The notes under the pieces were generated by a model. That model saw only the letters and a list, made by a program, of their open reading frames with translations. It was not told the DNA's origin and made no database searches. Of a stretch of DNA of 64,000 bases, positions 47,573 to 62,233 are shown in pieces. Numbering within the stretch: position 1 is the first letter of the stretch; the number at the start of each line of letters is the position of its first letter. Made by a program: the position numbers and the translations under genes. The DNA comes from Sneathiella chinensis (GTDB taxonomy: Bacteria; Pseudomonadota; Alphaproteobacteria; Sneathiellales; Sneathiellaceae): positions 434,001 through 498,000 of the forward strand of contig NZ_VNWN01000002.1 of assembly GCF_012720115.1 (NCBI RefSeq). The letters are read 5' to 3'.

Positions 47573-49837
47573 ATGAGCGACAATCGGGAATCCAGTCAAT
47601 ATGACGAGGCATTACGATATCATGCACAAGGCAAACCCGGAAAGATGGAGATTGTAGCGACCAAGGCTGTCGCGACGCAACAGGATCTCAGTCTGGCCTA
47701 TTCTCCCGGTGTGGCGGCGCCCTGTCTTGCCATCGCCGAGGACCCGGATGCTGTTTATGATTTTACCACCAAGGGCAACCGGGTGGCCGTCATTTCCAAC
47801 GGGACGGCAGTTCTGGGACTTGGCAACCTTGGGGCGCTGGGATCGAAGCCGGTGATGGAAGGCAAGGCGGTCCTGTTCAAGCGGTTCGCCGACCTGGACT
47901 GCTTCGACCTGGAACTGGATACCGAGGATGTGGACGAATTCGTCAACTGCGTCCGCTTTATGGGGCCCAGCTTCGGCGGGATTAACCTTGAGGATATCAA
48001 GGCGCCGGAATGCTTCATCATCGAACAGCGCCTGCGCGAGGAAATGGATATTCCCGTTTTCCATGATGACCAGCATGGCACGGCCATCATTTGCGCCGCA
48101 GGTGTAATCAACGCGCTGGACCTGACCGGCCGGGATATCAAGAACACCAAAGTCGTCGTCAATGGTGCGGGTGCCGCCGCCATCGCCTGTCTCGAACTGA
48201 TCAAGGCCATGGGCCTGCCGCACGAAAATGCGATCCTGTGTGATACCAAGGGTGTGATCTACAAGGGCCGTGAAGATGGCATGAACCAGTGGAAATCCGC
48301 CCATGCGGTGGAGACCGAGCACCGGACACTGGAAGAAGCCATGGTGGGCGCCGATGTGTTCCTTGGCCTGTCCGTCAAGGGGGCCGTGACCAAGCAGATG
48401 GTCAAGGAAATGGCTGCCAAGCCGATCATTTTCGCCATGGCAAACCCGGACCCGGAAATCCGCCCTGAGGATATCGCCGATGTGCGCGGGGATGCCATTG
48501 TGGCCACCGGCCGCTCCGACTATCCGAACCAGGTCAACAACGTCCTTGGTTTTCCGTATATTTTCCGGGGGGCGCTGGACGTTCGGGCCACGACCATTAA
48601 CGAGGAAATGAAGATCGCCGCCGCCGAGGCGCTGGCCGAACTGGCGCGCGAAGACGTGCCGGACGAGGTGGCCGCAGCTTACAAGGGCAACCGCCCGGTC
48701 TATGGCCCGGATTATATCATCCCGGTTCCGTTTGATCCGCGCCTGATCAGCCATGTTCCAACTGCGGTTGCCAAGGCCGCCATGGAAACCGGTGTGGCCC
48801 GCAAGCCCATCGTTGATGAAATGGCCTATCGGAATGAACTCAGGGCCCGTCTGGACCCGACCGCCGGTTCTCTGCAGATGATCATGGACGAGGTTCGCGC
48901 CGCACCGCGCCGCGTTGTTTTCGCAGAAGGCGAGGAAGAAAAAGTCATCCGCGCCGCCGTCGAGTTCCGCAAGGCCGGTTACGGCGTTCCGGTTCTGATC
49001 GGTCGCAAGGACATCATCGAGGAAACGATGACATCCCTTGGTATCGACACCCTTGACGGGATCGAGATTTATAACGCCCGCGAAATGGAAGACCGAGAGA
49101 AGTATCACAACTTCCTCTATGAGCGGCTGCAGCGCAAAGGCTATCTGTTCCGGGATTGTGTCCGGCTTGCCAATCAGGACCGGAATATCTTCGCGTCCTG
49201 TATGGTGGCGCTGGGCGATGCGGATGCCATGGTTACAGGCGTGACCCGGCGTTTCTCCGTTGCTTACAAGGATGTGCGCAAGGTCATCGATTCCAAGGAA
49301 GGCCAGAAGACAATCGGTGTGTCCATTGCCGTTGGGCGCGGCCGGACGGTGTTTATTGCCGATACGGCCGTTACCACCATGCCCGACGCCGAGGATCTGG
49401 TAAGCATCACCAAGGAAGCCGCAGAAGTTGCCCGCCGCCTTGGTCATGAGCCGCGTGTGGCCCTGTTGTCCTACTCCAACTTCGGCAATCCGGCCCATGT
49501 CACATCCGAGCGGATCCGCGAAGCGGTGCGCCTGCTGGATGCGGAAGAGCAGGATTTCGAGTATGATGGCGACATGTCTGCGGATGTGGCCCTGAACTCG
49601 GATATCATGGCGCTGTATCCGTTCTGCCGCCTGTCCGGTCCGGCCAACGTTCTGGTCATGCCGGGCCTGCATTCTGCCCATATTTCTTCCAAGCTGGTAC
49701 CGGTTCTGGGCGAAACACGGGTCATCGGCCCGCTGCTGGTCGGACTGGAAAAACCGGTTCAGATCGTGCCGATCGGGGCAACCGTTTCCGATCTGGTCAA
49801 CATGGCGGCGCTGGCTGCCCACGAAGCCGGACAGTAA
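47573..49837 (+). CDS. maeB: NADP-dependent malic enzyme with phosphotransacetylase domain
   Basis: MaeB decarboxylates malate to pyruvate with reduction of NADP. The 754-aa protein has the malic domain ([29 protein letters not shown]), an NAD(P)-binding domain ([20 protein letters not shown]), and, from about residue 430, a phosphotransacetylase-like domain ([31 protein letters not shown]), which in E. coli MaeB is regulatory and not catalytic. GAGGAATTATTAAA precedes the ATG. A clear terminator follows. Confidence 0.96.
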
Positions 49838-49875
49838 ACCGCTTCGGCCTTGGCCGATCGTTTCTGACACCTGTG

Positions 49876-49908
49876 AAACAGCCGCTTCCCTTGGGGGCGG
49901 CTGTTTTT
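49876..49908 (+). terminator. Rho-independent terminator of maeB
   Basis: A perfect 10-bp stem (AAACAGCCGC / GCGGCTGTTT) with an 11-nt loop, followed by a T-run (49904-49908), stands 39 bases past the maeB stop. It has all the features of an intrinsic terminator. Confidence 0.88.
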
Positions 49909-50005
49909 CGTTGTGGCTCCCACCACTTTTCCGAATTGGCCCTTTCAGATGGCCGTCTTTGCCGCCAAAAAAGGTGCCACTGAATTTCTTTTTCAAGGAT
50001 AGGCC

Positions 50006-50602
50006 ATGACCTGGATTGCACCGGTAACCCTTTCTGATGATCGGGTTGAACTGATCCCCCTGTCTGCCGACCATGCGCCTGAATTGCGTCTGGCGGTCCG
50101 GGACGGGGACCTTTGGACCCTCTGGTATACGTCGGTTCCCGACGAGGCCGGGATGGATGCCGAGATTGCCCGCCGCCTGCGCTTGCAGGAAGAGGGGACC
50201 ATGTTGCCCTTCGCGGTTCGGGATAAAAAGACGGGTACCCTTGTGGGCATGACCACCTTCATGAATATCGAGGCGGACAAGCAACGGGTTGAGATCGGAT
50301 CAACATGGTATGCCAGATCGGTACAGCGAACCGGCCTCAACACCCATTGTAAGCTTTTGCTGCTGGAGCATGCCTTCGAGGCGCTGGACTGTATTGCGGT
50401 CGAGTTTCGCACCAATTTCTTCAACCGTCAGAGCCGCACCGCCATTGAGCGGCTGGGGGCCAAGCTGGACGGGATTTTAAGGGCCCATCAGAAGATGGCC
50501 GACGGGGCCCTTCGGGATACCTGTGTCTACAGCATCGTGGCCAGCGAATGGCCCGCTGTCCGAACCCATCTGCGCTACCAGATATCCCGTTATCCGGCCT
50601 GA
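50006..50602 (+). CDS. GNAT-family N-acetyltransferase (RimJ/RimL type)
   Basis: This 198-aa protein matches the RimJ/RimL-like GNAT group that acetylates protein N-termini or small amines: VGMTTFMNIEADKQRVEIGSTWY, then TGLNTHCKLLLLEHAFEALDCIAVEFRTNFFNRQSRTAIERLGAKLDGILR. AGGATAGG is a few bases before the ATG. The substrate is unknown. It converges on the AMP-ligase gene with three bases between the stops. Confidence 0.87.
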   Translation: MTWIAPVTLSDDRVELIPLSADHAPELRLAVRDGDLWTLWYTSVPDEAGMDAEIARRLRLQEEGTMLPFAVRDKKTGTLVGMTTFMNIEADKQRVEIGSTWYARSVQRTGLNTHCKLLLLEHAFEALDCIAVEFRTNFFNRQSRTAIERLGAKLDGILRAHQKMADGALRDTCVYSIVASEWPAVRTHLRYQISRYPA

Positions 50603-53507: not shown

Positions 53508-54608
53508 TTAGGCTTTCTTCAGGTAATCGGGGGCCGGGACATGGTCCCGCTTTTGAACGCGGGCGGCTTCGTCATGGGTCAGGATGCCATTGATACAGGT
53601 AAGTCCCCGCGCCAGCCAGCCATTGCGGCGGCAAGCCTCAAGAGGGCCGTGTTCGGCAATGGCCCTGATATGGGGCAGCAGCGCAGCGGCATATCCGGCA
53701 GAGGAGGTCGCCGGAACCGCCCCCGGAATATTGTCGACGCAGAAATGACGGATACCATCGACGCTGTAGACCGGATCGGCCCAGCTTGTCGGGCGGCTGG
53801 TTTCAACGGCCCCGGCCTCGTCACAGGAAATATCGACAATCACGGCGGTGGGTTTCATGCGGGCAAGATCGGCGCGGCTGATCAGGTGGTCATCGCGATG
53901 CTTGGGCCACAGGACACAGTTGACCACCAGATCCATGTCAGGCAGCAGGTCCGGCAGGTCACTGATCTCGCCGGATCGATAGGTGGCATGATGCCAGTCC
54001 AGTTCCGCCTGTTTGCGGGCACCGGGGTGGATATCAAGGCCCGTTACATCCAGCCCGAGCGATATCAGGGTGCGAAGGGCCCCCCGTCCCACCTGCCCAA
54101 GGCCAAGGACCACGGCCTTCGTTGCCGGGGCGCCGAAATGGGCCATGAAATGGCGACCGGTTCCGCCATGGGGGGCCAGTGTGAGGCGCACCCCTTCAAA
54201 AGCCCCGACCTCACCGGCAAGGGGACAGTTGGGAGAGCCAAATTCGTGGGTATCCTCGGCGGCGATGGCGATCAGGCCAACCTCCAGAAGCCGATCCAGT
54301 TGAGGACGGTCATTGGCGGAATGAATATTGGTCAGAAGGATGTGGCGTTTTTCCAGAAAGGGGAATTCCGGGGGCAGGATTTCCTTGACCTTGACGATCA
54401 GGTCCGCCTGTTTGAAAACCTCTTCACCGCTCTCCAGTATTTGCGCGCCGGCGGATTGGTAATCCGCGTCATTTGCGCCGGAAAGCCTGCCTGCGCCTGC
54501 CTGAACATACAGATCATGACCCCGCGCCGTCAGGTCTGAAACCTGCGGGGGAAGAAGGGCGACCCGCCCTTCCTGCGATTTTATTTCCGTCGGAACACCG
54601 ATTTTCAT
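53508..54608 (-). CDS. Alanine dehydrogenase-like protein (AlaDH/PNT family)
   Basis: This 366-aa protein starts with MKIGVPTEIKSQEGRVALLPP, the AlaDH/transhydrogenase N-terminal pattern, has the substrate Lys in VKVKE, a Rossmann LGLGQVGRGALRTLISLG, and the CVDNIPGAVPATSS motif near the C-terminus. Alanine dehydrogenase would oxidise L-alanine to pyruvate and ammonia. The family also includes saccharopine-type enzymes, so the substrate is not proven. Its link to an AmpG-like permease suggests use of alanine released from muropeptides (inference). The start is ATG 54608, with in-frame sequence before it not matching the family. Confidence 0.8.
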   Translation of the reverse strand: MKIGVPTEIKSQEGRVALLPPQVSDLTARGHDLYVQAGAGRLSGANDADYQSAGAQILESGEEVFKQADLIVKVKEILPPEFPFLEKRHILLTNIHSANDRPQLDRLLEVGLIAIAAEDTHEFGSPNCPLAGEVGAFEGVRLTLAPHGGTGRHFMAHFGAPATKAVVLGLGQVGRGALRTLISLGLDVTGLDIHPGARKQAELDWHHATYRSGEISDLPDLLPDMDLVVNCVLWPKHRDDHLISRADLARMKPTAVIVDISCDEAGAVETSRPTSWADPVYSVDGIRHFCVDNIPGAVPATSSAGYAAALLPHIRAIAEHGPLEACRRNGWLARGLTCINGILTHDEAARVQKRDHVPAPDYLKKA

Positions 54609-54714
54609 GCAACATACCTGATCAAGCAAGAAGACTGTCCATGACCTTAGAACATGTTTTTCTGAAATGGAACCTTTCGGCGAAACCTGTTCACGGGAAA
54701 GTCCGCTCCAGCGT

Positions 54715-55179
54715 CTAGCTGTCAGATTTTTGCAGGCTTTCCTTTGCCTTCTGCAACTCTTCGGTGGTTCGGACCAGTCGTTCGGCCAGAACCCGCATCA
54801 TTTCGATGGACATTTCCGGGAATTCGCGGATCAGGCGCAGGAACAAATCCTTGGTAATGCGCAAGGTTGTCAGTTCTGTGGCGGCCTGAATGGTTGCCGT
54901 GCGGGGAATGTTGATCAGGATGGCAATCTCGCCCACCACATCATTCTTGGACAGGGTGGCCACTGTCATCCTGCCGGACGGGGTGTTGACCTGAACGTCG
55001 GCCTTGCCACTGATGATGACATAGGCGGCGTCGCCCATGGTGCCCTGCTCGCAGACCAGATCGCCGGGTTGGAAGGTGACCCGTTCGGACGTGAAGGCCA
55101 GAAGTTTGACTTTCGACGGATCCACCTTGGCAAACAGGGGAATCTGGCGCAGGGTTTCGACTTCTTCTCTCAAAGTCAC
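54715..55179 (-). CDS. Stand-alone cyclic-nucleotide-binding protein
   Basis: This 154-aa protein is a single cNMP-binding beta-barrel with a helical tail. The phosphate-binding cassette is well formed: GEIAILINIPRTATI has the Glu and Arg expected for cAMP or cGMP binding. No helix-turn-helix or other output domain is attached. GTG 55179 is used as start, with AGGAG eight bases upstream. It begins 27 bases after the atypical ABC exporter gene and is very likely co-transcribed with it, so it may be that protein's cyclic-nucleotide-dependent partner. Confidence 0.87.
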   Translation of the reverse strand: MTLREEVETLRQIPLFAKVDPSKVKLLAFTSERVTFQPGDLVCEQGTMGDAAYVIISGKADVQVNTPSGRMTVATLSKNDVVGEIAILINIPRTATIQAATELTTLRITKDLFLRLIREFPEMSIEMMRVLAERLVRTTEELQKAKESLQKSDS

Positions 55180-55206: not shown

Positions 55207-57861
55207 CTACGCGGTTAGTTTTTGAAAGGCGGGATTTCCGGCTTTCAGGTCTTCATAAGACCCGGAGTCGATTATTTTTCCGCCGCCTATAATTAATATA
55301 TGGTCGAAAAGATAGGCCATTTCAGGTTTTTCAAGGGACCACAAAACAGTCCGTCCCTCAAATTCATTGAGGATATTCTCAAGAATTTTCTGCTGGGTCC
55401 GGGCATCGAAAGAGGCGGTGGACTGGCTCATGATCAGCAGGTCCGGCCGCTTGATGATGGCCCGAGCGATACAGAGCTTCTGCCGCTGGTTTTCATTCAG
55501 GCGGCTGCCCGCCGCCCCGACATTGTAATTCAACCCCACCCGGATGATGGTTTTCTTCAGGTCCAGTTCGTTGACAACCGAGGAAAGCAGGGCGCCGATT
55601 TTCTCGGCCGCCTGGGCAAAGCCGAAAGCGATCTTGCCGAACAGGATATTGTCCTGAATGTTCGCTGCCAGATTGTAGGCATTGGCATCAAAGAAGGCGA
55701 CGCTGTCCTTCAGGTGGTCCGGCAGGTTTTCGGCAAACAGTTTGCGGGCGGCAATGATGCTGTCCTGCACCTCGTCTGTCACGACGCCAAGGCGGTGGCG
55801 GGACGGAATGACCTTGAAGGGAAGCGACAGGAATTTCAGCCGGTCTTCCTCGCGCATATGCGAGATGTCTTCCAGACTGGTCCGGTTGAGGATGGCCTGA
55901 TATTCCGGCAGTTCCTCGGAGGAAATGAAGCTGTAGAGCTGGAAAAACTCGTGGTCCGGGGGCAGGTCGGCAAACAGTTCGACCATCAGGCTGGCCACCT
56001 GATACCCCATTTTCAGGAAGGTATCTGTCAGGTTACTACGATCGAGGATTTTCTGGACATAGGCATTTTCCGCCAGTCGCTCCAGATCGAAGGCATTGCC
56101 GACCGGGGTGCCGAACAACAGGTTTTCCCCGATGGTGGCGTTGGTGTTGTATTTATCCGGCTGGAACGCCTCGACAAGGTCTTTCAGGCCGGGGTCGGCC
56201 TCCAGTTTCTCGTAAAATAACCGGCGGGCCGCCAATATCTGCCCGGCGGTCTCGTGGTCTTCGTCCGGGTCCAGTGAACTGCGGAGGCCGAACTGATAGA
56301 CATCATTATCCAGTTCCACCATGGACAGGACCTCGATGGCCTTGTGATCAAGCGCGTGTTTGTCTGTCACACCGGCACTTTCGTAATCGATCCAGTCCGC
56401 GCCGTAATCGTCGGTCGAGTTTCCGGTGATCCGGACTTCTTGACGGTCTTTCTCCCGGAATTCCGCTTCCTCCTCGTCATGATCAAGCTCTTGCTCATGC
56501 AGGGGGCGGTGCTTCAGGCCAAAGAACAGGTTCTCTCCAAGGGTGGTGTTGAACACATAACCGCTTTGCCCCACATAGGAAATCCGGCGTCCGGTAACGG
56601 CCTCGGGTGCGGCGCGCAGGTCCACTTCACCGGCCCGGATGGTTCCCCGGTGCGGGTCGATCAGGCGTGCCAGAACCTGTGTCAGGGCCTCCCGGCCGGA
56701 ACCGGCAGAGCCCACAAGGGCGACCCGTTTGCCAAGCGGAAAGCGAACGTTCAATCCTTCCAGTTGCGGAGAGCCCGTGTCATCGGACAGGACAATATTG
56801 TGGGCAGCAAGCTCGCCGGTGAGGTGGGGGATGGTCTCCGGCTCGTTGGTCTGGTGGGTTTCCTCGCGCATGCCGGCGGGTTCGAACTGTTCGACGACCT
56901 GTTCATACTTGATGCGGGCATCTTCCCGGCGCTGGTAATAGGCCAGCAGTTCCTTCCACGGGGCGGCCATTTCCTTGTGGGCCGAAATGGCCGCCACAAG
57001 GGTCCCGATTTCCAGATTGCCCTGAATGACCATGGTGCCGCCAAAGGCATAGAAGAAGAACGGTCCCAGCTGCTGGATGAAGTTGTTGAGAAACTTGATG
57101 ATGAATTTCAGGACATAAATCCGGTAGCGCACATTGAACACAAGGCCAAGCTGGCGGGTGAACAGGGCCCGGAAATAGTTGGATGTGTCATGGACGTGAA
57201 CTTCCTGAACGCCGGAGACTGTCTCCCCGATCCGGTCCGACATGATCCGCACCAACCGGACCCGTTCCTTGCCCAGCAGGTTCACCTTCTTCTGCATTTT
57301 CGGAATGAAATAGGCCTGCAACGGATAGAGCGCAATGGCCGCAAGGGCCATATAGACATTCTGGACAAGCAGGAAACTCATGATCACGATCAGATATCCG
57401 CCCTGAAAGGCCGGAAGGGCGAAGGCTTCGCCGATGAACCCGCCAAGGGGTTCAACCTCGGCCGTGATCATGGGGATGATTTCGCCGGGGCTTTTCTTGC
57501 GGAATGTGGGCAGGGGAAAGCGCAGGATACGGCTGTACAGTTCGTAGCGCAGCCGCCGCAGCATTCTTTCGCCGGAAATCCCCTGATAGACATTGATGAT
57601 ATATTTGAAGGTCTGGTTGATGATCACCAGCACCAGAAACAGGCCGACCGAGGCATACAGAAACTCGGTCTGGTCCAGTTCAACGCCGTAATATTCAATG
57701 GGAAAGATGATGTCCTTGGCCTGAATGGCCTGATCAATGATGATCTTGGGAAGTTCCAGATAGTAATACAGAAAGGGAAAGGAGGCGCAGGAAAGAAGGG
57801 TCAGGATGATTTGCTGCTTTTTACTGTGGCGCAGAATATATTTGTAGATACTGTGTTCCAT
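55207..57861 (-). CDS. Atypical ABC exporter with degenerate ATPase motifs and a repeat-bearing insertion
   Basis: This 884-aa protein has an N-terminal type IV ABC exporter membrane domain (about six hydrophobic segments, residues 15-310) and a C-terminal nucleotide-binding domain. The catalytic elements are altered: Walker A is GSAGSGRE (384-391), lacking the Lys; the signature is RLNENQRQ (787-794) where LSGGQ is expected; Walker B is LLIMSQST (808-815), lacking both Asp and Glu; the H-loop position has Glu844. The Q-loop Gln432 and D-loop Asp819 remain. About 300 extra residues lie between the Q-loop and the signature, with three repeats of the pattern N-x-I-x-(E/D)-N-(L/I)-L/F-F-G (near 438-448, 576-584, 734-742). 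ATP hydrolysis is unlikely. Its role is unknown. Confidence 0.85.
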   Translation of the reverse strand: MEHSIYKYILRHSKKQQIILTLLSCASFPFLYYYLELPKIIIDQAIQAKDIIFPIEYYGVELDQTEFLYASVGLFLVLVIINQTFKYIINVYQGISGERMLRRLRYELYSRILRFPLPTFRKKSPGEIIPMITAEVEPLGGFIGEAFALPAFQGGYLIVIMSFLLVQNVYMALAAIALYPLQAYFIPKMQKKVNLLGKERVRLVRIMSDRIGETVSGVQEVHVHDTSNYFRALFTRQLGLVFNVRYRIYVLKFIIKFLNNFIQQLGPFFFYAFGGTMVIQGNLEIGTLVAAISAHKEMAAPWKELLAYYQRREDARIKYEQVVEQFEPAGMREETHQTNEPETIPHLTGELAAHNIVLSDDTGSPQLEGLNVRFPLGKRVALVGSAGSGREALTQVLARLIDPHRGTIRAGEVDLRAAPEAVTGRRISYVGQSGYVFNTTLGENLFFGLKHRPLHEQELDHDEEEAEFREKDRQEVRITGNSTDDYGADWIDYESAGVTDKHALDHKAIEVLSMVELDNDVYQFGLRSSLDPDEDHETAGQILAARRLFYEKLEADPGLKDLVEAFQPDKYNTNATIGENLLFGTPVGNAFDLERLAENAYVQKILDRSNLTDTFLKMGYQVASLMVELFADLPPDHEFFQLYSFISSEELPEYQAILNRTSLEDISHMREEDRLKFLSLPFKVIPSRHRLGVVTDEVQDSIIAARKLFAENLPDHLKDSVAFFDANAYNLAANIQDNILFGKIAFGFAQAAEKIGALLSSVVNELDLKKTIIRVGLNYNVGAAGSRLNENQRQKLCIARAIIKRPDLLIMSQSTASFDARTQQKILENILNEFEGRTVLWSLEKPEMAYLFDHILIIGGGKIIDSGSYEDLKAGNPAFQKLTA

Positions 57862-58000
57862 CCAAAGATATCCGTTCCTGTTGCGCGTGCGCCGGGTTTC
57901 TCCCCACCTTTACTGGAAGAGATACTTTTCCATAAATACCACCGCCCCAGCAAGCGGCAAATGTATAACGGTGGACACAAACAGGCAAACCAGCGAGCGG

Positions 58001-58039
58001 AACCGGAAAAAGGCCGGTTATTGCCGGTTGAATTTCCGG
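58001..58039. promoter_or_regulatory. CCGGTT-repeat element in the glycan operon leader
   Basis: AACCGG (58001-58006) pairs with CCGGTT (58014-58019), which is repeated directly at 58024-58029, ten bases later. CCGGAAA (58003-58009) can also pair with TTTCCGG (58033-58039). The two stems exclude each other. The element lies 60-100 bases upstream of the first glycosyltransferase start and could be an operator array or a leader switch. The rest of the 241-base divergent gap should hold the promoters of both operons; TTTACT followed by TAAATA near 57911-57940 is a weak candidate. Confidence 0.45.
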
Positions 58040-58102
58040 CCCCGTGCCCTTACTAGAGGAAGCAGAGGAATTGGAGCAAAGCGGAACAGGACCCGGAATG
58101 GT

Positions 58103-59347
58103 ATGAAAACGAAATCAGTGATTGCGGTTGTCCTGAAAGGCTATCCCCGCCTGTCGGAAACATTCATTGCCCAGGAATTGCTGGCGCTTGAGAAGCGGGG
58201 GCACCGTCTGCAACTGGTGTCGCTGCGACATCCGACGGATACGACAACCCACCCTGTCCATGACGAGATTACGGCCCCGGTCAATTACCTGCCGGAATAT
58301 CTGTATCAGGAACCCTTGCGGGTCCTGAAGGCGTGGTGGAAAGTGCGCCGCTATCCCGGATATAAAAAGGCCTTTCGCACCTGGAAGCAGGATTTTCGGC
58401 GGGACCGGACCTCCAACCGGGGGCGTCGCTTCGGTCAGGCGCTGGTTCTGGCGGCGGAACTGCCGGAAGAAACGGGGCTTATCTATGCCCATTTCCTGCA
58501 CACACCGGCCTCGGTTGCCCGCTATGCCAGCATGATCCGGGAGGTGCCGTGGACCTGCTCGGCTCATGCCAAGGACATCTGGACCTCACCGGAATGGGAA
58601 TTGTCGGAAAAGCTGGACGATCTGGACTGGCTGGTGACCTGCACCTCGACCAATGTGACGTATCTGAAAGGACTGGCCAGCGACCCGGCGAAGGTTGAGC
58701 TGCTGTATCATGGACTGGATCTCAGCCGGTTTGACCGGCACGTGGAGCGCGTTCACCAGCGGGATGGCAGTGGCCCTGACCAGACGGTTCAGATTTTATC
58801 CGTGGGGCGGGCCGTGGCCAAGAAGGGATATGATGATCTGCTTGTTGCGCTGAGCCGGTTGCCGGACAGCCTGTCCTGGCATTTTACCCATATTGGCGGC
58901 GGGACGCTGCTCGCGGCCCTTCAGAAGCAAGCCGCCGACCTTGGCCTTGCGGAGCGGATCACATGGAGCGGATCGCAACCCCAGCACGCGGTTCTGGACG
59001 CCCTGAAAGGGTCCGATATTTTTGTTCTGGCCAGCCGGATTGCCGAGGATGGTGATCGGGACGGGTTGCCAAATGTGTTAATGGAGGCGCAAAGTCAGGG
59101 GGTTGCCGTGGTGTCCACACGGGTATCGGCGATCCCGGAACTGATTACCAGCGGCGAACAGGGCCTTCTGGTGGAACAAAGGCAACCGGAGCAGTTGTCC
59201 GAAGCACTGGAAACCCTGATCCGTGACCCGGAAATGCGGGATCGGTTCGCCCGGTCCGGCGAGGCCCGTTTGCGGGAACATTTTGACGCGTCAAAGCTGG
59301 TTGTTAAACTGTCTGACAAATTGAAAGAGCATCCATCTGTCAACTAA
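58103..59347 (+). CDS. GT4-type glycosyltransferase
   Basis: This 414-aa GT-B fold glycosyltransferase starts with VIAVVLKGYPRLSETFIAQELLALEKRGH, a start typical of GT4 enzymes of exopolysaccharide operons. The C-terminal half has the donor-binding region VLASRIAEDGDRDGLPNVLMEAQSQGVAVVSTRVSAIPELI with the E-X7-E motif. The sugar is unknown. It is the first gene of the plus-strand operon; the ATG at 58103 fits the family start, while in-frame sequence before it lies in the leader. Confidence 0.88.
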   Translation: MKTKSVIAVVLKGYPRLSETFIAQELLALEKRGHRLQLVSLRHPTDTTTHPVHDEITAPVNYLPEYLYQEPLRVLKAWWKVRRYPGYKKAFRTWKQDFRRDRTSNRGRRFGQALVLAAELPEETGLIYAHFLHTPASVARYASMIREVPWTCSAHAKDIWTSPEWELSEKLDDLDWLVTCTSTNVTYLKGLASDPAKVELLYHGLDLSRFDRHVERVHQRDGSGPDQTVQILSVGRAVAKKGYDDLLVALSRLPDSLSWHFTHIGGGTLLAALQKQAADLGLAERITWSGSQPQHAVLDALKGSDIFVLASRIAEDGDRDGLPNVLMEAQSQGVAVVSTRVSAIPELITSGEQGLLVEQRQPEQLSEALETLIRDPEMRDRFARSGEARLREHFDASKLVVKLSDKLKEHPSVN

Positions 59348-59358
59348 GGGGCGGGTTC

Positions 59359-60495
59359 TTGAAAATTGCCTTCTATGCGCCTTTGAAATCACCGCGGCAT
59401 CCACAGCCGTCCGGGGACAGGCGTGTGGCCCGGTTGATATCTGCCGCGCTGGAGGAGGCCGGCTTTGACGTGGAGCTTGCGTCCGAGCTGCGCACCTTTG
59501 ATCGGCAGGGGGATGGTGCCTTTCAGCAGGCGATACGGGAGAAAAGCCGGATTGAGGCGGAACGCCTGATTGCCCGGTGGTCGGGCGCCGGGGCGGCGGA
59601 CCGACCGGGGGCGTGGTTTACCTATCATCTGTATCACAAGGCACCGGACTGGATTGGCCCGGCGGTGGCGGCCGCCCTTGATATTCCCTATCTGGTGGCG
59701 GAGGCGAGCGACGCCCCGAAACAGGAAAACGGTCCCTGGCATCTGAACTATGAGGCGGCCCGGTCGGCACTTTTGCAGGCCAGCCGGGTGTTCCACATGA
59801 CCCGGCATGACCGGGCCTGTCTTGAGCCGGTGGTGGGGGCGGATGCCGGGAAACTGGTCTTTCTGCCGCCCTTTCTGGGGACGGAAACGGGGGATGAAGG
59901 CGGACCGGACCTGCAACGGGACGGGGTCAAGCCCGCCGCGGGACGCTTTGATCCGGCCCGCAAGACGCTGCTGTCCGTGGCCATGATGCGGCCGGGGGAT
60001 AAAATGGTGTCTTACCAGCAACTGGCGGAAAGCCTGCAGTTGCTTGACCGCACGGACTGGCAAATCCTGATCATCGGGGACGGCGAGAAGGAACAGGAAG
60101 TCCGTACGTTGTTTGAACCCGTTCGGGATCATGTGGTCTGGATCGGCAAGGTGGAACGGAACCTGTCCGCCTGGTACCGGTTGGCCGATCTTTATGTCTG
60201 GCCCGCCCATGGGGAAGCCTATGGCATGGCCTTTCTGGAAGCCCAGCGGCAGGGCCTGCCGGTGGTCGCGGGGGCGATCCGGGGTGTTCCCGATGTGGTG
60301 AAGGGGGGCGAAACCGGCTTGTTGACACCGCCGGGTGATCTGCCGGCCTTTGCCGCGGCGATTTCCCGAATGCTGTCCGATGACGCGCTGCGGACCCGTA
60401 TGGGGCAGGCGGCGCGCCGGTTCGTCCGGGAAGAGCGGACAATCCAACAGGCGGCGTATTTGCTGAAAACAGAAATAACCGAGGTGCTGTCATGA
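59359..60495 (+). CDS. GT4-type glycosyltransferase
   Basis: This 378-aa GT-B glycosyltransferase has an N-terminal half MKIAFYAPLKSPRHPQPSGDRRVARLISAALEEAGF and a donor-binding C-terminal half with VWPAHGEAYGMAFLEAQRQGLPVVAGAIRGVPDVV (E-X7-E-type). The N-terminal half is unlike that of the first glycosyltransferase, so the two are not recent duplicates. The start is a TTG (59359) with GGGGCGGG upstream, 11 bases after the previous stop. The stop overlaps the next gene (ATGA). Confidence 0.83.
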   Translation: MKIAFYAPLKSPRHPQPSGDRRVARLISAALEEAGFDVELASELRTFDRQGDGAFQQAIREKSRIEAERLIARWSGAGAADRPGAWFTYHLYHKAPDWIGPAVAAALDIPYLVAEASDAPKQENGPWHLNYEAARSALLQASRVFHMTRHDRACLEPVVGADAGKLVFLPPFLGTETGDEGGPDLQRDGVKPAAGRFDPARKTLLSVAMMRPGDKMVSYQQLAESLQLLDRTDWQILIIGDGEKEQEVRTLFEPVRDHVVWIGKVERNLSAWYRLADLYVWPAHGEAYGMAFLEAQRQGLPVVAGAIRGVPDVVKGGETGLLTPPGDLPAFAAAISRMLSDDALRTRMGQAARRFVREERTIQQAAYLLKTEITEVLS

Positions 60496-61073
60496 TCCCC
60501 CTGCTTTTGGTGCGGCACGGAAAAACGGCGTGGAACCTGCAGAAAAAACTTCAGGGGCGGCGGGATATTCCCCTGTGCCCGGAGGGGATGCAGGAGTTGT
60601 CGCGGCGCGGCCTCCCCGCCGGTTTCGAGGCTTATAACTGGGTTTCCAGCCCGCTTGTCCGGGCGCAGGAGACAGCGGTTCTGCTGGGGGGACGGGATAT
60701 TCGGGTGGAGCCGACGCTGATTGAAATGGATTGGGGGGACTGGGAAGGCTTTACCATCCCCACCCTTCGGGAGCGCCTTGGCGACGCCATGGAGCAGAAC
60801 GAGGCGCGGGGGCTGGATATGCAACCCACGGGCGGCGAAAGCCCCCGTATGGTGCAGGAACGGTTGCGGCCGTGGCTTGCCGCGCTGGACGCCCCCACCG
60901 TCGCCGTAACCCATAAGGGTGTAATCCGGGCCATTAAATCGCTTGCATATCAATGGGATATGAAGGACAAATTTCCCTTGGAATTTGACTGGAGCGCGGC
61001 TCATCTTTTTGACATTGACGGAAAGGGTGAGGTGCATCCGGTCCGTCTCAATATCAGTCTGGAAAATACATGA
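60492..61073 (+). CDS. Histidine phosphatase family protein
   Basis: This 193-aa enzyme of the phosphoglycerate mutase-like superfamily has the catalytic RHG (residues 8-10), the WNLQKKLQGRRDIPLCPEG segment, and the second active-site His in VTHKGVIR. The metal-independent reaction uses a phosphohistidine. In this operon it may dephosphorylate a sugar or nucleotide-sugar intermediate, which is inference. It overlaps both neighbours by four bases. Confidence 0.88.
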   Translation: MIPLLLVRHGKTAWNLQKKLQGRRDIPLCPEGMQELSRRGLPAGFEAYNWVSSPLVRAQETAVLLGGRDIRVEPTLIEMDWGDWEGFTIPTLRERLGDAMEQNEARGLDMQPTGGESPRMVQERLRPWLAALDAPTVAVTHKGVIRAIKSLAYQWDMKDKFPLEFDWSAAHLFDIDGKGEVHPVRLNISLENT

Positions 61074-62233
61074 CCGAACCAGCCGAGCGCCCCAAAATCC
61101 TGTTTTATGTACAGCATCTGCTGGGCATTGGTCACCTGCGCCGCACGGCCACCCTGTCCCGCACATTGGTACAGGCCGGGTTTGATGTGACGGTGGTGTC
61201 CGGGGGGCACAAGATCGGTGTCGATCTTGGCGGGGCACGCCTTGTCCAGCTTCCGGCCACCCGCGCCACGGACCTGTATTTCAAGCAACTGGTGGACGAG
61301 GAGGGCAACGACATTGATGACGGTTGGCGGGAAAACCGCGCCCGTCTGTTGTTGCAGACATGGCAGGACCTGCAACCGGATGTCCTGATTACCGAACTGT
61401 TTCCGTTCGGTCGCCGCCAGATGCGGTTTGAACTGCTGCCCCTGCTGGATGCGGCGAAGGCGGCTGCGCGGCCGCCGCTGATCATTTCGTCGGTCCGGGA
61501 TATTCTGGTGGCCCAGACCAAGCCGGGACGCAATGATGAAATGCTGGGGCTGGTAGAGCGCTATTTCGATCATGTTCTGGTGCACGGCGATCCCGACCTG
61601 ATTTCACTGGACCGGACCTTCCCCCATACGGAACGGATCCGGGACCGGATCGCCTATACGGGATATGTGGTGGACCAGAGCGGCGTGAAGGGCGGCGATG
61701 ATGCCCCCGGTGCGGGAGAGGTGATTGTTTCAAGCGGCGGCGGGGCTGTCGGGGAGACATTGCTGAAAACCGCCATGGCCGCACGGCACCTGACGGCGGC
61801 TCGGGATCGGGTCTGGCGGGTGATGGTCGGGACAACGGTCGATCAGGCAACGTTTGATGATATCGCCGGGCAGGCCCCGGAAGGTGTGATTGTCGAGCGG
61901 GCGCGCCCCGATTTCACCACCCTGCTGATGAATTGTGCCCTGTCGATCAGTCAGGGCGGTTATAATACGGTCATGGAAATTCTGCATGCCGAGTGTCGGT
62001 CGGTGATTGTTCCCTATGCCGGCGGGCTGGAAACGGAACAGACCCTGCGGGCTGAACTGCTGGCCGCCAAGGGGGTGCTGCATGTGGCCGATGAAACAGG
62101 TTTGACACCTGAAATACTGGCTGCCCGGGTGGATGAGGCGTTGCAGGGCCCACCCACCAGCGCCCGGATTGATGTGGGCGGCGCGGCCCGGACAGTTGAC
62201 CTTCTGAACCACTGGCTGGATAAGCGCCCATGA
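61070..62233 (+). CDS. MurG-like (GT28) glycosyltransferase
   Basis: This 387-aa GT-B protein opens with ILFYVQHLLGIGHLRRTATLSRTLVQAGFDVTVVSGG and has the C-terminal GT28-type donor site: SSGGGAVGETLL and SISQGGYNTVMEIL, with GG-X-N-T as in MurG. In sequence it resembles bacterial proteins annotated as predicted glycosyltransferases next to polysaccharide deacetylases. Acceptor and donor are unknown. Start and stop overlap neighbours by four bases (ATGA). Confidence 0.85.
   Translation: MTEPAERPKILFYVQHLLGIGHLRRTATLSRTLVQAGFDVTVVSGGHKIGVDLGGARLVQLPATRATDLYFKQLVDEEGNDIDDGWRENRARLLLQTWQDLQPDVLITELFPFGRRQMRFELLPLLDAAKAAARPPLIISSVRDILVAQTKPGRNDEMLGLVERYFDHVLVHGDPDLISLDRTFPHTERIRDRIAYTGYVVDQSGVKGGDDAPGAGEVIVSSGGGAVGETLLKTAMAARHLTAARDRVWRVMVGTTVDQATFDDIAGQAPEGVIVERARPDFTTLLMNCALSISQGGYNTVMEILHAECRSVIVPYAGGLETEQTLRAELLAAKGVLHVADETGLTPEILAARVDEALQGPPTSARIDVGGAARTVDLLNHWLDKRP

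Follow-up and report, generated by a model that had tools for sequence, protein, structure and literature searches.

ATP-binding cassette (ABC) exporters are textbook ATP engines, and their ATP sites are composite, each being built from motifs of both halves of the transporter. The nearest reported pairing of such an exporter with a cyclic nucleotide-monophosphate (cNMP)-binding domain that we found is HetC of Nostoc. In the portions of the HetC report available to us (PMC10986499), HetC is a peptidase-containing ABC exporter whose N-terminal cNMP domain is required for function and which also needs its ATPase residue, since an E970A variant formed no heterocysts. Here, we analyzed 64,000 nucleotides of Sneathiella chinensis (contig NZ_VNWN01000002.1, positions 434,001 to 498,000; the whole stretch is called the window) and characterized a degenerate ABC-exporter gene at 55207 to 57861 on the minus strand. 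Its family has retained the exporter frame, apparently lost the chemistry, and acquired a putative signal-binding partner. No account of this family was found in the open-licence PubMed Central literature, and in public annotation such proteins are called "ABC transporter ATP-binding protein" or similar.

The gene is a single open reading frame (ORF) of 884 amino acids (aa) with an ATG start and zero internal stops, and Pfam recognized ABC_membrane (residues 67 to 293; E = 2.9e-22) and ABC_tran (residues 367 to 469; E = 7.9e-14), the latter match covering the first part of that domain only. The first-pass annotation, made from the letters of the window, had described an intact ABC-exporter homologue with a membrane domain, which agrees with these results. 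An AlphaFold2 (AF2) model (predicted template modeling score, 0.60) retained the nucleotide-binding domain (NBD) fold, with the NBD of ComA (3vx4_A) matched at a Z score of 27.3 and a root mean square deviation of 2.2 over 239 of 239 residues, and with TM287/288, TmrAB, and SUR2B also among the fold matches. The window protein thus has the two components of the type I ABC exporter fold, an ABC_membrane domain and an NBD fold. In NCBIfam, it stayed under the curated cutoff of all 25 models listed (best, 170.9 versus 725 bits).

We compared the catalytic motifs over a 101-row set, namely, the window protein plus 100 regions taken from 98 of the 131 positive genomes of a class-wide draw, two of which contributed two rows; left out were fragments, the remaining Sneathiella genomes, and some close relatives. 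As controls, eight ordinary exporters encoded in the same genome as the window protein were added to the family alignment. The window protein was off consensus at the A-loop, at two residues of Walker A, at the signature, at both residues of Walker B, and at the H-loop, and hence carries neither the Walker A, Walker B, and LSGGQ motifs nor the A-loop aromatic and H-loop His of a working ATPase. At the Walker A place (56689 to 56712; all motif coordinates are on the minus strand), residues 384 to 391 read GSAGSGRE, with Arg390-Glu391 in place of the Lys-Ser/Thr found in 8 of 8 controls and in 5 of 101 family members; position 390 was Lys in 61 and Arg in 34 rows, and position 391 was Ser or Thr in 6 and Asp or Glu in 77. 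The Walker B place (55423 to 55440; residues 808 to 813, LLIMSQ) has Ser812-Gln813 instead of the Asp-Glu of all controls, and the family kept the Asp in 18, the Glu in 55, and both in 4 rows. At the H-loop place (55330 to 55332), Glu844 stands where His occurs in 31 of 101 family members and in every control. The signature place (55486 to 55500; residues 788 to 792) reads LNENQ; exact LSGGQ was found in 0/101 family members, which is the weaker test as only 4 of 8 controls have it, and the second signature Gly was found in 9/101 versus 8/8. The Q-loop (56566 to 56580; residues 428 to 432, SYVGQ) includes the Gln, which was present in 16 of 101 rows. Finally, the A-loop place (56779 to 56784) is occupied by Asp360-Asp361, with Asp or Glu in 98 (position 360) and 92 (position 361) of the rows. 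Column 360 was Asp in 66, Glu in 32, and aromatic in none, compared with Tyr in seven controls and His in one.

These losses are not an alignment artifact, because all eight controls had Lys-Ser/Thr, the Q-loop Gln, the Walker B Asp-Glu, and the H-loop His at the same columns. The first-pass annotation had correctly read the Arg-containing Walker A, LNENQ at the signature, and Glu at the H-loop; its Ser-Gln at Walker B is also real, although numbered one residue too high, and the A-loop change is an addition to its list. Arg390 and Ser-Gln, whose conservation it had proposed to check, were ruled out as family signatures by the counts above. It had also named close relatives with intact Walker A/B as the finding that would speak for decay of this copy, and no row was canonical everywhere. 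On a quick membrane-domain tree (our trees were built without bootstrap), the catalytic positions have changed many times, the fewest changes being 20 for Lys390, 21 for Glu813, and 18 for His844. Because the acidic A-loop residues are nearly universal, we read the pocket as probably freed from hydrolysis and rebuilt, beyond mere erosion. The most divergent members (L180 to L184), in which the cNMP domain is fused, have lost the Walker A glycines too, and copies of this type occur two apiece in genomes G176 and G351.

The NBD also contains a long insertion. The distance from Walker A to the signature was 404 residues, compared with 103 to 104 in the eight controls (family range, 386 to 473), so that about 300 residues are extra; the insertion columns held 286 residues in the window protein and 26 to 27 in the controls. 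In hhalign comparisons, segment 535-705 matched segment 695-805 (E = 4.4e-17; 83 columns), and segment 425-545 matched segments 535-705 (E = 2.7e-6) and 695-805 (E = 4.9e-5; 22 columns), while ten column-shuffled controls, all run against segment 535-705, gave E values of 0.019 to 0.46. From these profile matches and from equivalent Asn and Arg residues, the NBD holds three tandem Q-loop-to-signature-helix units with approximate boundaries: unit 1 (56194 to 56568, minus strand; residues 432 to 556), unit 2 (55717 to 56193, minus strand; residues 557 to 715), and unit 3 (55444 to 55716, minus strand; residues 716 to 806). In each unit, a Q-loop-like stretch is followed by an E/D-N-x-L/F-F-G stretch and finally by an A-R helix. 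Unit 3 is the copy matching canonical exporters (E = 3.4e-16 versus the eight controls), unit 1 starts as a canonical Q-loop segment (E = 1.1e-11 versus the controls), and unit 2, which alone matched canonical exporters weakly (E = 0.0007), is linked via unit 3. The equivalent Asn (Asn444, 100/101; Asn580, 101/101; Asn738, 101/101) and Arg (Arg546, 101/101; Arg706, 101/101; Arg800, 98/101) were near-invariant, whereas the catalytic positions vary.

Duplication of an NBD segment, already proposed in the first-pass annotation, is therefore supported by the profile comparisons, with two additional copies, and its estimate of 300 residues between Q-loop and signature holds for the extra residues, the actual span being about 355. 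A known foreign domain in the insertion, which the same annotation had named as the finding that would overturn its reading, received no match in Pfam or among PDB sequences (queried with the single sequence or a 19-row profile; no fold search was made). Folded alone, the insertion gave a poor model with a predicted local distance difference test score (pLDDT) of 58.3. Over the family, mean pairwise identity was highest in the membrane domain (56872 to 57861, minus strand; residues 1 to 330), at 0.53 over residues 1 to 325, followed by 0.43 to 0.44 in units 2 and 3, 0.41 in the NBD end, and 0.37 in the NBD front part with unit 1.

Twenty-seven bases downstream of the exporter gene lies a gene for a 154-aa protein (54715 to 55179, minus strand), in which a cNMP-binding domain was the sole Pfam match (E = 6e-20). 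Such a partner was found in 94 of 101 members, as the directly downstream gene in 82 and fused at the C terminus in 12; such an association of a cNMP-binding domain with an ABC transporter is also known from HetC. The fusion was verified by Pfam in all three members scanned and requires at least two changes on the tree. Gly83, Glu84, and Arg93 in the cassette of the window protein's partner recur in 94, 88, and 94 of the 94 partners, respectively; residues of this kind bind the ribose-phosphate in CRP. Eleven Guanylate_cyc domains (PF00211) exceeded the cutoff in the same genome. Adjacency and fusion together are the strongest functional clue.

The gene is conserved and under purifying selection. 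At E ≤ 1e-60, it was found in 20 of 23 other genomes of the genus and in 24 of 40 genomes overall, including its own; alignment A2 used 18 of those 24 loci, omitting fragments L044, L047, L052, L054, and L055 and the unrelated L056. In a class-wide draw, 131 of 385 alphaproteobacterial genomes were positive at E ≤ 1e-100. A draw confined to the phylum gave 27 positives among 398 genomes, every one labeled as own or same class, the share of the 398 lying outside the class not being shown. Plasmid records yielded 345 matches, 224 of them from Rhizobium or Sinorhizobium, including S. meliloti pSymB. All 101 rows were single ORFs of at least 867 aa. Among the 12 closest pairs, which do not involve the window copy, the ratio of nonsynonymous to synonymous substitution rates (dN/dS) was 0.03 to 0.07; these ratios are rough because dS was at least 1.0 in every pair shown. 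Thus, the loss of ATPase residues from an intact gene, as the first-pass annotation had it, concerns a gene maintained by selection.

The best joint explanation of these observations, to which we assign a probability of roughly 55%, is a membrane switch with the ABC fold, under the control of a nucleotide-binding subunit rather than of ATP hydrolysis. The protein would probably be a homodimer with the exporter fold that no longer works by hydrolyzing ATP, and the remodeled NBD would hold and move the membrane domain. The ATP pocket would have been rebuilt with an acidic pair at the A-loop and Arg/Lys-Glu/Asp replacing Lys-Ser/Thr, and the segment from Q-loop to signature helix has been copied into three tandem units. 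The cNMP-binding protein, whether encoded by the neighboring gene or fused at the C terminus, could serve as the control input: its ligand would alter the fit to the triplicated units, so that the NBD pair opens or closes and sets the membrane domain, replacing ATP. A non-pumping role of the window protein is plausible on these grounds, for instance, as a nucleotide-responsive gate, passive flippase, or scaffold, any of which would serve the adjacent glycosyltransferases in the making of envelope glycans or glycolipids; the first-pass annotation had put forward a sensor, a scaffold, or a gated channel as candidate roles. The extended proposal, that an alphaproteobacteria-spanning family of ATP-independent ABC-fold switches has its ATP pocket converted into a conserved acidic site and its triplicated segment into a docking platform, with a subunit for cyclic or related nucleotides in place of ATP setting membrane-domain conformation, is more tentative and falls somewhat short of even odds.

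A glycosyltransferase run lies divergently upstream of the exporter gene, all on the plus strand: a GT4 glycosyltransferase (57881 to 59347, the ORF as listed, its true start probably lying further in), a second GT4 glycosyltransferase (59359 to 60495), a histidine-phosphatase superfamily protein (60492 to 61073), and a GT28-like glycosyltransferase (61070 to 62233; PF04101, E = 5e-9). Relatives of the first three occurred in 65, 59, and 54 of the 101 loci, respectively, counts lowered in part by contig ends, and both GT4 genes occurred together with the phosphatase in 54. Three glycosyltransferases precede the ABC-cNMP pair on S. meliloti and Rhizobium plasmids. A role in glycolipid handling would be a guess from these gene neighbors. 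In the available part of PMC10945364, SMb20813 is named as the msbA homologue of S. meliloti, and it might be the pSymB gene found here (L187). The AmpG, alanine-dehydrogenase-like, and AMP-ligase neighbors in the window are local, being found in 1 of 101 loci each and in other Sneathiella. The alanine-dehydrogenase/transhydrogenase-like gene (53508 to 54629, minus strand; 254 bits versus an alanine dehydrogenase cutoff of 391.85 bits) sits between the cNMP gene and ampG and is present in part of the Sneathiella loci only. Elsewhere in the window, an 890-aa ORF beside mutS (47612 to 50284, minus strand) gave no match in Pfam or NCBIfam; it may not be a gene, because a 754-aa ORF (47573 to 49837, plus strand) overlaps it on the opposite strand. 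One clustering of neighbors was blurred by antisense ORFs and served only to choose proteins for scanning.

We also found relatives of 407 to 497 aa that have a similar membrane domain and are too short for an NBD. These ORFs (L189, 8773 to 10266; L229, 5773 to 7077; L230, 5761 to 7023; L231, 5773 to 7077; L032, 1441 to 2664; L199, 1468 to 2709) lie in copper-resistance loci, as judged by eye for L032 and L199, which adjoin genes resembling a metal P-type ATPase and a copper oxidase. Two of them were scanned with Pfam, L189 over its whole length and L032 in part, and ABC_membrane was the only match. In all four roseobacter plasmid loci opened, their neighbors encode a copper oxidase, a copper-binding protein, or cytochrome c; cytochrome c genes often follow these ORFs, which are annotated as ABC transporter proteins. 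The roseobacter proteins resemble the window protein in the membrane domain (32 to 42% identity) and differ in being too short to accommodate an NBD, in carrying what by eye is a hydrophobic N-terminal extension, and in their copper rather than glycan neighbors. One such relative matched 84 plasmid records at E ≤ 1e-60, full-length members among them. The quick tree nested the NBD-less relatives inside the family, whereas a topology with all full-length members in one group scored 31.65 log units higher (approximately unbiased test, p-AU = 0.943); given the long branches, either placement is tentative. Their existence suggests that the membrane domain can be kept without its motor. Like the cNMP partner and the glycosyltransferase neighbors, they are new beyond the first-pass annotation.

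Several observations weigh against the switch. Nucleotide may still be bound in the pocket, since Lys or Arg at position 390 persists in 95 of 101 rows and Gly389 and the D-loop Asp each persist in 92. In 32 of 101 rows, an aromatic residue lay within positions 358 to 360, usually at 358, a place that is aromatic in the controls as well. Member L129 has the Lys, Thr, Asp, Glu, and His all present, which indicates that the degree of motif loss varies across the family; its signature is LSGAQ, its Q-loop lacks the Gln, and its A-loop column holds Glu. Members L093 and L148 have the Lys, the Asp-Glu, and the His. Seven of the 101 members had no recognizable cNMP partner in the fetched stretch, profile search included; one class-draw match outside the 101 (G231) has an in-frame TAG; and neighbors of the glycosyltransferase run were absent from 36 to 47 of the 101 loci, contig ends being partly responsible. 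Confidence in the AF2 model is modest, with a pLDDT of 69.9. Furthermore, cNMP domains can take other ligands, as that of HetC bound guanosine tetraphosphate (ppGpp) and not cyclic AMP in the available portions of PMC10986499.

The retained pocket residues and the nearly canonical L129, together with two of eight control exporters that are also clearly off LSGGQ, could instead point to an active exporter that still binds and slowly hydrolyzes ATP or another nucleotide via changed chemistry, with a merely regulatory cNMP subunit. We consider this unlikely, though a serious contender, because the family has no aromatic at the A-loop column and no LSGGQ, has Ser or Thr at Walker A in 6 and both Walker B acids in 4 of 101 rows, and the window protein has none of these. 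The glycosyltransferase neighbors (59 to 65 of 101 loci) and the NBD-less relatives would also suit a protein acting purely as the scaffold or receptor of a glycosyltransferase complex, without gating and with a separate cNMP protein that merely shares the operon; this is improbable given that 12 members carry the cNMP domain fused at the C terminus, which argues for physical coupling, and that the membrane domain retains the exporter fold. TM287/288 and TmrAB among the fold matches bring to mind a heterodimeric exporter in which the window protein would be the degenerate half, with the gene for a canonical half lying elsewhere. Because Walker A, Walker B, and signature are all altered in one half, however, neither composite site should work, whether the protein pairs with itself or with a canonical partner; besides, no canonical half occurred among 10 neighbors scanned, and the next-best match in the genome was 22% identical, leaving this a quite improbable arrangement. 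A decaying pseudogene would account for the lost catalytic residues, but neither relaxed selection nor a broken frame was observed, and the presence in 20 of 23 congeners and 131 of 385 class genomes and the low dN/dS make it scarcely credible.

If the protein is indeed a nucleotide-controlled switch, it would reveal the capabilities of an NBD scaffold that does not depend on ATP, and it would offer a natural system for studying how another ligand can drive the membrane domain. With type I exporters (MsbA, TM287/288, and PCAT1, and the NBD of ComA), the window protein shares PF00664, the NBD fold, and the membrane domain-NBD order of a half-transporter, and it differs from MsbA, TM287/288, and PCAT1 in its altered catalytic motifs, about 300 extra residues, and a cNMP partner. 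HetC and the window family both link an ABC exporter to a cNMP domain; HetC, as far as the available portions of PMC10986499 describe it, has a peptidase, an essential ATPase residue, and an N-terminal cNMP domain, whereas the window family has a C-terminal or separate cNMP domain and a degenerate ATPase, and the window protein itself has no peptidase domain in Pfam and no Walker B Glu. Degenerate-site exporters, SUR, and CFTR, as treated in the part of PMC7756269 available to us, likewise have noncanonical motifs under selection and known non-pump roles. Those proteins combine a degenerate site and a consensus site, whereas in the window protein all motifs of one half are altered and the helical segment is triplicated.

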